Of a DNA stretch of 64,000 nt, positions 13,518 through 62,797 are shown piece after piece; positions within the stretch are counted from its first letter, which is position 1; the number at the start of each line of letters is the position of its first letter. A program made the position numbers and the translations under genes. The notes under the pieces were generated by a model. It saw nothing but the letters and a program-made list of their open reading frames with translations, had not been told where the DNA came from and did no database searches. The stretch is from Bacillus pumilus (lineage in GTDB: Bacteria; Bacillota; Bacilli; Bacillales; Bacillaceae): contig NZ_CP046128.1 in the NCBI RefSeq assembly GCF_038738535.1, forward strand, positions 1,860,001 to 1,924,000. The letters are read 5' to 3'.

Positions 13518-13551
13518 AGAGTGAACAGAGTTTGTCATAAGGAGGAAAAAT

Positions 13552-13803
13552 ATGGAGCGCTATCAAAAGCTTTGTCAGCAGCACATGGGAAAAGTCGCTA
13601 GAATCACAGATCGTAATGGCAGAGTACATGTCGGACGCATTGAGCGGGTGACAAACCGTAAAGTGTATATTCGTCCAGTCGGCGGTTCTCGCGGCGGCTT
13701 TGGCTTTGGTTATTACGGAGGGTATTACGGCTGGGGTGCCGCTTATGGCATCGGGCTTGGTTTCATTACAGGTTTCGCATTAGCAGGATTGTTCTTTTTT
13801 TAA
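13552..13803 (+). CDS. yodI: YodI, small Gly/Tyr-rich spore-associated protein
   Basis: An 83-residue protein. The first 45 residues are basic and look like a small beta-rich domain (GKVARITDRNGRVHVG); the rest is Gly/Tyr/Phe-rich (GFGFGYYGGYYGWG) and ends in a hydrophobic segment. AAGGAGGAAA precedes the ATG. Length and position match B. subtilis YodI. The sigma-K promoter match upstream suggests a role in the outer spore layers. Biochemical function is unknown. Confidence 0.8.
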   Translation: MERYQKLCQQHMGKVARITDRNGRVHVGRIERVTNRKVYIRPVGGSRGGFGFGYYGGYYGWGAAYGIGLGFITGFALAGLFFF

Positions 13804-50276: not shown

Positions 50277-50411
50277 GATAGCACCTCTTCCTGTATTTTT
50301 TTTATATACGGACAAGGTGTGCATAAAGTTTCAGAAAATGGGGACGTTTTAGCTATTATTGTTATTCGCCAAAAAAAATCAAATATTCTGCTCAAAATTT
50401 GGCTCTTCCGC

Positions 50412-50535
50412 TTGACGCTTTACTTTTGATGGTGTATAGTGGAACCATCATTTAACAACTGCAAAGTCGTTAGGTGATGAAAATTTTTTTTAGTATGCCA
50501 AAAGGTATGCTACAGTACTAGGAGGAAAAAGCAAT
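50412..50535 (+). promoter_or_regulatory. cspD promoter and long cold-shock leader
   Basis: TTGACG (50412-50417), 17 bases, TATAGT (50435-50440) gives a start near 50447 and an untranslated leader of about 89 bases ending in AGGAGGAAAA. Long structured leaders are typical of cold-shock genes, where they act as thermosensors; no specific fold was computed. Confidence 0.65.
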
Positions 50536-50736
50536 ATGCAAAACGGTAAAGTAAAATGGTTCAATAATGAAAAAGGTTTCGGCTTCATTGAAGTTGAAGG
50601 CGGAGACGATGTATTCGTTCACTTCACAGCTATCGAAGGTGACGGCTACAAGTCTTTAGAAGAAGGACAAGAAGTTTCTTTTGAAATCGTTGAAGGTAAT
50701 CGTGGACCTCAAGCTGCAAACGTAACAAAAATCTAA
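50536..50736 (+). CDS. cspD: Cold-shock protein CspD
   Basis: A 66-residue OB-fold RNA/DNA chaperone with RNP1 KGFGFIEV (13-20) and RNP2 VFVHF (26-30). It differs from B. subtilis CspD at only a few C-terminal residues by recall. AGGAGGAAAAAGCAAT precedes the ATG. It acts in the cytosol to keep RNA unfolded during cold and stationary phase. Confidence 0.93.
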
Positions 50737-50762
50737 TCAACTAAATCAATGATGTAAAGACA

Positions 50763-50795
50763 AAATAAAGAGAGGCCTATGCCTCTCTTATTTGA
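50763..50795. terminator. Bidirectional terminator between cspD and degR
   Basis: AAGAGAGGC (50768-50776) / GCCTCTCTT (50781-50789); the degR stop is in the second arm. Confidence 0.8.
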
Positions 50796-58735: not shown

Positions 58736-59245
58736 TTAATTTAGCAAATACTGATTTAACGCTTTCTCCTCTGTTTGAATTCTTACAGCCATCATCCATG
58801 CATTTAAACACGTAAACAAAATGGCAGTGACATACGCCTCAAACAATAGCGGGATCAGCAAAAGTTCAATCGCCACGACTACATAGTTAGGGTGTTTCAA
58901 CCAACGATACGGCCCTTTTTTTACAATCATTGCGTTTGGCACGACTAAAATCTTTGTATTCCAGTACGTCCCAAGGGAGCATAATGCCCAGTATCGAATG
59001 ACCTGTGTAGCCATCAGGAAAAGGAGCAGCACAAGAAAATACCGGGACGGCCCCTTATGTAAAAGCCCTATCTCAACTATGAGTGAGAGAAAAAAGGCCG
59101 TATGCATAGCGACCATATAGGGATAATGACTAGCACCAAATTCAATGGCACCTATCGCTTTTACTTTTCTTTCATTTCTTTTGGCCACAATCATTTCAAT
59201 GAGCCGCTGACAAACGAAGAAACCGATAACAAGCCAAATGATCAT
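58736..59245 (-). CDS. bpsB: Alkylpyrone O-methyltransferase BpsB (ICMT-like, YpbQ)
   Basis: A 169-residue membrane protein of the isoprenylcysteine carboxyl methyltransferase family with about five helices. The SAM-binding end GPYRWLKHPNYV (near 117-128) is intact. In B. subtilis BpsB methylates alkylpyrones made by BpsA. The start at 59245 follows GGGAGGATG and overlaps the bpsA stop, so the pair is coupled. Confidence 0.87.
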   Translation of the reverse strand: MIIWLVIGFFVCQRLIEMIVAKRNERKVKAIGAIEFGASHYPYMVAMHTAFFLSLIVEIGLLHKGPSRYFLVLLLFLMATQVIRYWALCSLGTYWNTKILVVPNAMIVKKGPYRWLKHPNYVVVAIELLLIPLLFEAYVTAILFTCLNAWMMAVRIQTEEKALNQYLLN

Positions 59246-60342
59246 GACAAGACATCCTCCCATTTCATAAGCAGCAGTTCTGAGGAAAAGCCTGGACCAA
59301 GCGCCCCGCAAAGGCCAATATCCCCCGCTTCAATTGATTGATGTTCAAGGAAATGCTTGATGACATACAAAACTGTGGCAGAGGACATATTTCCGTGTTG
59401 TTTGAGTACTTCTTTTGAAGAAAATAGCTGATCCTCTCGTAAAGATAGACTTTCAACATAGGCATCAATCACTTTTTTTCCTCCAGGATGGGCAAGAAAA
59501 ACGGATAAGTCTTTAGTTGAACATCCAAGCTCCTCTAAAAATTGATCCACCTGCTCTTTTAACCAGCCTGAAATCATAGACGGAATGTCACGGGAGAAAA
59601 TAACCCGAAAGCCGTCACTTGTAAATTCCCAGCCCATCACATCCTCAGAATCCTTCATCGTGACGGATTGTGTACTTAGTACTTTAGGGACTGTTTTTAA
59701 ATGGGCATATTCTAGTGCAGCCGTTTCTCCAGCTAAAAGAGCCGCAGCCGTCCCGTCTCCAAATAAGGAGGTGCCGATTAAATTGCTTTTTGATTGATCT
59801 TGCGGCTGAAAGGTTAAACTGCACAGCTCACAGGCAACGACGAGCACCTTTGCTTCTGGATATGCCCTTATGTATTCATAAGCCCGAGACAGCCCTGCCG
59901 CACCACCCCCGCACCCTAGCCCCCAGATCGGTATTCGTTTCGTATAAGGAGAAAAAGGAAGTACGTTCATCAGCTTTGCATCAAGACTTGGGGTCGATAA
60001 GCCGGTACTTGAAATAAAAAACAGTGCATCGATCTCTTCAACCGGGATCGGCTTTTTCAGAAACGCCTTCTCTTGAAGACAATGTAAGATTGCTTCTTTT
60101 GCATGAGCCAGTGCCTTCTCCAAATAGATATTGTTTTTCTCTTCAAAAGAGTGGTGCGTCTGATACCATTCAATGGGCTGTACAAATTGCCTGCTCTGAA
60201 TTTCTCCATTTTGAAAAGCTCTCAGCAGCCGATCAATATCTTTAAACGATCGTTTAAATTGAGACCTAGCAAATTCAGCAGCTGTTTTCTGATCCACGTG
60301 ATGCTTCGGGTGACTCGTTCCAATTGAAAGAATGTACGTCAT
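59242..60342 (-). CDS. bpsA: Type III polyketide synthase BpsA (BcsA)
   Basis: A 366-residue chalcone-synthase-like enzyme. The catalytic triad is seen: Cys144 (GLGCGGGAAG), His in LAHPGGKK (near 290) and Asn in HGNMSSATV (near 325). It extends long-chain acyl-CoA with malonyl-CoA to make alkylpyrones. ATG at 60342 sits eight bases after AGAGGTGA; the GTG three codons earlier lies in that site. It forms an operon with bpsB. Confidence 0.92.
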   Translation of the reverse strand: MTYILSIGTSHPKHHVDQKTAAEFARSQFKRSFKDIDRLLRAFQNGEIQSRQFVQPIEWYQTHHSFEEKNNIYLEKALAHAKEAILHCLQEKAFLKKPIPVEEIDALFFISSTGLSTPSLDAKLMNVLPFSPYTKRIPIWGLGCGGGAAGLSRAYEYIRAYPEAKVLVVACELCSLTFQPQDQSKSNLIGTSLFGDGTAAALLAGETAALEYAHLKTVPKVLSTQSVTMKDSEDVMGWEFTSDGFRVIFSRDIPSMISGWLKEQVDQFLEELGCSTKDLSVFLAHPGGKKVIDAYVESLSLREDQLFSSKEVLKQHGNMSSATVLYVIKHFLEHQSIEAGDIGLCGALGPGFSSELLLMKWEDVLS

Positions 60343-60415
60343 CGGCTTCACCTCTTTTTTCGGTTAATATCCCCTATCGAAAAAAGGATATACATGCCAA
60401 ATCGTCACAATTCAG

Positions 60416-60490
60416 TCAAAACATTTTCCTCCGTCTAACTTTTTGTCTTGACGACAATTGATAAATATTGGATAATATAGTTGAAAACAT
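60416..60490 (-). CDS. Possible 24-codon ORF antisense to the candidate sRNA
   Basis: ATG at 60490 preceded by AAGGAGG eleven bases away; the peptide begins MFSTILSNIYQLSSRQK and ends in a basic RRRKMF. It is the alternative reading of the same bases as the small RNA entry; the U-tract direction favours the RNA on the plus strand. Confidence 0.25.
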   Translation of the reverse strand: MFSTILSNIYQLSSRQKVRRRKMF

Positions 60491-60548
60491 GATGTAGTTT
60501 TCCTCCTTCACAGGTTCGTTCCAAGCCAAGCGAACCTGCTTTTTTTAT
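60483..60548 (+). ncRNA. Candidate small regulatory RNA, about 66 nt
   Basis: TTGACG (60448-60453), 17 bases, GATAAT (60471-60476) is a plausible promoter with start near 60483. The transcript would carry an unpaired TTTTCCTCCTT, complementary to ribosome-binding sites, then a perfect hairpin CAGGTTCG / CGAACCTG (60510-60537 region) and seven Ts. The T tract is only on the plus strand, and no plus-strand gene lies upstream, so the terminator needs its own transcript. Both neighbours (bpsA, pbuX) are on the minus strand. Confidence 0.55.
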
Positions 60549-60578
60549 GCAAAAAAAACACCTCTTAATGAGAGGTGT

Positions 60579-60581
<3 letters not shown>
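60549..60581 (-). terminator. Terminator of xpt-pbuX
   Basis: AAACACCTCT / AGAGGTGTTT arms with a long A tract (Ts on the minus strand); includes the pbuX stop codon. Confidence 0.85.
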
Positions 60582-62680
<2,099 letters not shown>

Positions 62681-62797
62681 TTATAGTGTTCAAATTATAA
62701 CAAGATTTCAGACGCTTGGAAAGCACTTTTCCAGAAAAATACCGAACTTAAATAATAGATCAGATCAAAATGTTCGTTTTTAGAATATTCAAGCATC

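Follow-up and report, generated by a model that had tools for sequence, protein, structure and literature searches.

The intergenic region between two minus-strand genes of Bacillus pumilus, a bpsA-like type III polyketide synthase gene upstream (59242-60351; Pfam PF00195/PF02797) and a pbuX-like xanthine (purine) permease gene downstream (60579-61898; PF00860), raises the question of whether a small RNA (sRNA) is encoded there on the plus strand and, if so, which RNA it is and how it might act. All coordinates given here refer to the window, the whole stretch of 64,000 nucleotides that was analysed. An earlier note on this DNA had placed between these genes an independent, terminator-ended sRNA with an anti-Shine-Dalgarno stretch. 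Both the location and the proposal itself are supported, the latter through an Rfam match and conservation across the genus. Judged from sequence, the feature is a genuine sRNA gene, the B. pumilus-group copy of the already catalogued Bacillus RNA ncr982; it belongs to a known family rather than being a new candidate sRNA.

Using cmscan, we found a match to RF02454 (ncr982) at 60480-60554 on the plus strand, with a score of 74.3 bits against a gathering cut-off of 50 (E = 8e-10 over 64 kb), spanning model positions 1-79 of 79 and hence the full length of the family. No other Rfam family reached its own cut-off at this locus, including the FsrA and RoxS families. Our own covariance model, built from 23 ncr982 copies, scores the window copy at 81 bits, and the alignment shows that this copy contains the UUUUCCUCCU core followed by a terminator hairpin, as in the ncr982 family. 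We regard the gene as real because of the Rfam match together with genus-wide conservation, which are the decisive evidence.

In B. subtilis, ncr982 was reported as an 81-nt RNA (1917500-1917580) located between fosB and lexA, and it was enriched 47.7-fold (RPKM ratio 47.7) by co-precipitation with tagged Hfq (PMC3574147, Table 1 for the RNA). The RF02454 match in genome G003, read as B. subtilis, lies at 1917502-1917581, at the reported peak to within 2 nt, which makes the window gene homologous to an RNA that has been detected experimentally. A transcript of about 70-80 nt has been shown for ncr982 in B. subtilis only (PMC3574147). We found no functional study of ncr982 in the literature searched, and neither lexA nor fosB comes up in the main texts of RNA-seq papers on B. 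licheniformis and B. amyloliquefaciens. Compared with the RNA of B. subtilis 168, the window copy has a full-length match above the curated cut-off and agrees in its core and in how its parts are ordered, but it sits in the bpsA-pbuX interval instead of next to lexA. Since position is not part of the Rfam definition, this non-lexA site leaves its membership of the family intact. It also departs from the family in a loop that is shorter by about 4 nt and in a 5' hairpin (GAAAAC..GUUUUC) that only the pumilus group has.

Promoter-like pairs by themselves are no more frequent than chance in this region (4 found versus 3.8 expected). The plus-strand pair that had been pointed out earlier, a sigma-A-type promoter (TTGACG-17-GATAAT, 60448-60476), is conserved across genomes: TTGA(C/T) and GATAAT with 17-nt spacing occur in 31 of the 32 loci searched and in all 31 aligned genomes, although the alignment script selected on this spacing and the remaining locus (L027) is the one that did not fit. 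About 17 nt 5' of the -35 box lies a further conserved element, TTTTCCT/GTTTCCT (60424-60430, plus strand), which may be a regulator site. A TTTCCT-like element is found in the same register in genomes with lexA or bpsA as neighbour, at nearly all of the loci L001-L028 and L185-L192, and extends into the inverted repeat GTTTCCTNNAGGAAAC in many of the lexA-type genomes.

Transcription is expected to start around 60479-60483, and the expected transcript of about 67 nt (60480-60546, plus strand) is covered by both RF02454 and our own model. Its antisense region, CATGATGTAGTTTTCCTCCTT (60488-60508, plus strand), is complementary to a Shine-Dalgarno sequence plus start codon and includes the TTCCTC and TCCT core, which is near-invariant in the alignment (TTCCTC.T). 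It is followed by a Rho-independent terminator (60511-60546, plus strand) with a 10-bp stem, an 8-nt loop and T7, in which the hairpin CAGGTTCGTTCCAAGCCAAGCGAACCTG precedes the T-run. Compensatory double changes support two of nine stem pairs (UA to CG in seven sequences, GC to AU in one), and none of 200 shuffled sequences folds as well as the window copy (z = -3.9). The minus-strand reading of the hairpin has no T-run, and the terminator is one-directional, as the earlier note had it; pbuX terminates at a separate site (60580-60556, minus strand). The C/U-rich stretch described there as single-stranded, TTTTCCTCCTT, is present and conserved, but in the window copy the 5' GAAAAC..GUUUUC fold is predicted to pair its TTTTC, leaving mainly CTCCTTCAC free. 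In clades other than the pumilus group the stretch is predicted to be mostly unpaired; the unpaired probability of the core is about 0.7-0.97 outside the pumilus group versus about 0.3-0.6 within it.

The same conservation bears on whether the locus could instead be a small open reading frame, either of 24 codons on the minus strand (Shine-Dalgarno sequence AAGGAGGAAAAC, then TACATC-ATG) or on the plus strand. In the pumilus group, the minus-strand reading does have a good Shine-Dalgarno sequence and ATG; in B. subtilis it shrinks to 4 codons (ATG TTT ACA CCA TAA), and its start codon is gone in most licheniformis-type copies. The plus-strand reading in the window is ATG ATG TAG. The conserved unit comprises promoter, core and terminator, and genome comparison revealed no conserved ORF at the ncr982 locus on either strand. 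A coding origin for the locus is thus highly improbable, and the minus-strand frame, whose conservation had been named as the alternative that would speak against an sRNA, is ruled out by sequence comparison.

The RF02454 search detected ncr982 in 28 of 61 genomes, all of one genus. With our own model, each of the 44 genomes of this genus gave a hit; homologues were accepted in 43 of them, 17 being pumilus-type genomes. The covariance search suggested earlier across the pumilus group recovered the RNA there and well beyond. The hit in G026 was rejected, being weak and having neither the promoter nor lexA as neighbour, and weak secondary hits of the model (L193-L199, L201), which also have no promoter, were treated as chance. 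In other genera of the family, the model found ncr982 in 0 of 36 genomes at E 0.001. Nine genomes carry divergent copies, one with a score under the Rfam cut-off and the other eight undetected in the Rfam search, in which a core of about TTCCTCTTT or TCCCTCTG replaces TTCCTCCT; these were confirmed by their lexA-adjacent position and promoter. Between clades, whose labels (pumilus-, subtilis-, licheniformis- and velezensis-type) we assigned from gene content and sequence, the core changes from TCCTCCT to TCCTCTTT.

The neighbours of ncr982 divide cleanly into two sites, with 26 genomes having lexA beside it and the 17 pumilus-type genomes all having bpsA there. In the window genome (G000) there is no copy of ncr982 beside lexA. 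At the 3' side of lexA in this genome (L184, L200), another gene occupies the place where most other Bacillus genomes have ncr982. Downstream of the RNA, pbuX is present in the fetched stretch in 9 of the 17 pumilus-type loci. It was not found in that stretch in the other eight, at least some of which have unrelated genes adjoining ncr982 (L014, L017, L021). Beyond pbuX in the window, a purine riboswitch (RF00167, 68.5 bits; 62598-62697, minus strand) lies upstream of xpt-pbuX; as the listed start of the xpt ORF (62614) overlaps it, translation of xpt probably begins at a more internal ATG.

The earlier note had likened the RNA to RoxS and FsrA. As an analogy this holds, since ncr982 would likewise be an independent sRNA that ends in a terminator and directs a CU-rich stretch at Shine-Dalgarno sites, and all three RNAs have been found with Hfq in B. 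subtilis (PMC3574147). Homology does not extend to them, given the absence of such an Rfam match, and ncr982 differs in having one CU stretch. DucS of B. altitudinis, which comes from the same species group, is an intergenic sRNA as well (PMC10504365). It was rejected as the identity of the window RNA on account of its size (about 200-225 nt), its other locus and its circular form (PMC10504365).

That ncr982 exists, how it is built, that its promoter is conserved and to which family it belongs are shown here or in the literature, whereas its regulatory action and targets are inferred; Shine-Dalgarno antisense in trans is the most likely mechanism. The B. pumilus-group RNA, made from the sigma-A promoter as a product of about 67 nt ending at the Rho-independent terminator, would use its conserved CU-rich stretch, aided by the adjacent CAUGAUGU, to pair with the Shine-Dalgarno regions of several mRNAs, sometimes including the start codon, and would thereby block ribosome binding. 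We consider this action probable. Read as its complement, the conserved core gives a Shine-Dalgarno sequence with A residues after it, and the adjacent CATGATGT gives a start codon with context. However, any CCUCC resembles an anti-Shine-Dalgarno sequence, so that complementarity alone is weak evidence, and the predicted pairing of half of the anti-Shine-Dalgarno stretch inside the window-genome sRNA counts against the mechanism. So does the role of Hfq in Bacillus sRNA action, which is generally regarded as minor (PMC4634765).

Such resemblance would also suit an RNA that acts mainly as a sponge or decoy, or as a binder of proteins (Hfq, CsrA, an RNase or the ribosome), with a CU stretch that pairs with G-rich RNAs or imitates the 16S anti-Shine-Dalgarno sequence. 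The 47.7-fold Hfq co-precipitation in B. subtilis (PMC3574147), the likeness of the core to the CCUCC of 16S rRNA, and the occurrence in B. subtilis of RosA, a G-rich sponge of CU-rich sRNAs (PMC8216469), are all in keeping with this. We consider such a function doubtful, as the change of the core between clades is not well explained by a decoy of an invariant partner.

In favour of mRNA pairing, a genome has only about 20-35 exact complements of the core placed 1-9 nt ahead of an ATG, one of them being the copy opposite ncr982 itself, and ycdA is among them in both pumilus- and subtilis-type genomes. Target ranking was restricted to genes with an exact 10-nt complement in the ribosome binding site (RBS), followed by an ATG within 9 nt, and gene names were assigned from reading of proteins and positions. 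Among the 43 genes retrieved for the window genome and B. subtilis (G000, G003), an exact site is common only to rplP, a gene nearly identical between the two, and ycdA, whose lipoprotein product is 52% identical. A search of the window genome for the 21-nt complement with up to three mismatches found only the ncr982 gene itself. One site in the window belongs to a small 83-aa glycine/tyrosine-rich protein, probably membrane-anchored (13539-13803, plus strand), with an RBS, AAGGAGGAAAAATATG, that complements the core exactly. The RBS of a cold-shock gene (about 50520) also has AGGAGGAAAA; a marginal match to the cspA thermoregulator over this gene (50378-50794, plus strand; 80 bits against a cut-off of 78) is probably driven by the coding sequence. 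The RBS of recA in B. subtilis has the motif (L095), but recA was rejected as a target of the lexA-side sRNA, being low in rank and not among the exact window-genome matches.

The ycdA duplex is the best among the matched RBSs of the window genome, at -33.3 kcal/mol with 23 pairs and one bulge, and pairing from Shine-Dalgarno sequence to start codon amounts to about -24 to -33 kcal/mol across pumilus-type genomes and -17 to -25 kcal/mol in subtilis-type genomes, all energies that ignore accessibility. As a special case of Shine-Dalgarno antisense, the ycdA mRNA could be a dedicated ancestral target, with ncr982 as a near-perfect antisense of its Shine-Dalgarno sequence and start codon; in four genomes our sRNA model also gives weak matches (E 0.24-0.42) on the strand complementary to the start of ycdA. 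This special case appears rather unlikely, although less so than a decoy: ycdA is mid-ranked in B. subtilis (about 9th of 21 matched RBSs), the ycdA RBS of licheniformis- and velezensis-type genomes has no such motif and that of G032 has drifted, and extended pairing is not retained within the pumilus group itself, where the spacer of ycdA varies although ncr982 stays the same. The target prediction proposed earlier with the CU core yields a lead in pumilus-type genomes that is mid-ranked in B. subtilis and absent in the other clades. Given the rank in B. subtilis, the loss of the motif and energies that ignore accessibility, we name ycdA a lineage-limited target candidate, a lead rather than an established target.

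Beyond what Rfam holds, our analysis adds the layout over two sites, the copies with divergent cores, the element upstream of the promoter, and ycdA as a single target lead open to testing. A bolder history can be drawn from these, in which a genus-wide sRNA gene and its promoter changed chromosomal site as an intact unit, its seed shifted between clades, and in the pumilus lineage it became a near-complete antisense of the ycdA RBS and start codon. We consider this history improbable as a whole; if true, ncr982 of the pumilus lineage would be a dedicated repressor of the ycdA lipoprotein. The two-site layout offers a clean basis for dating the relocation of ncr982, and the comparison supplies a species list and clade-to-clade seed variants for the family. 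To our knowledge, targets have been identified for few sRNA families of Gram-positive bacteria. Nearly all species of the genus have ncr982, which ranks among the RNAs most strongly enriched with Hfq in B. subtilis, and ycdA provides a directly testable target candidate for it.
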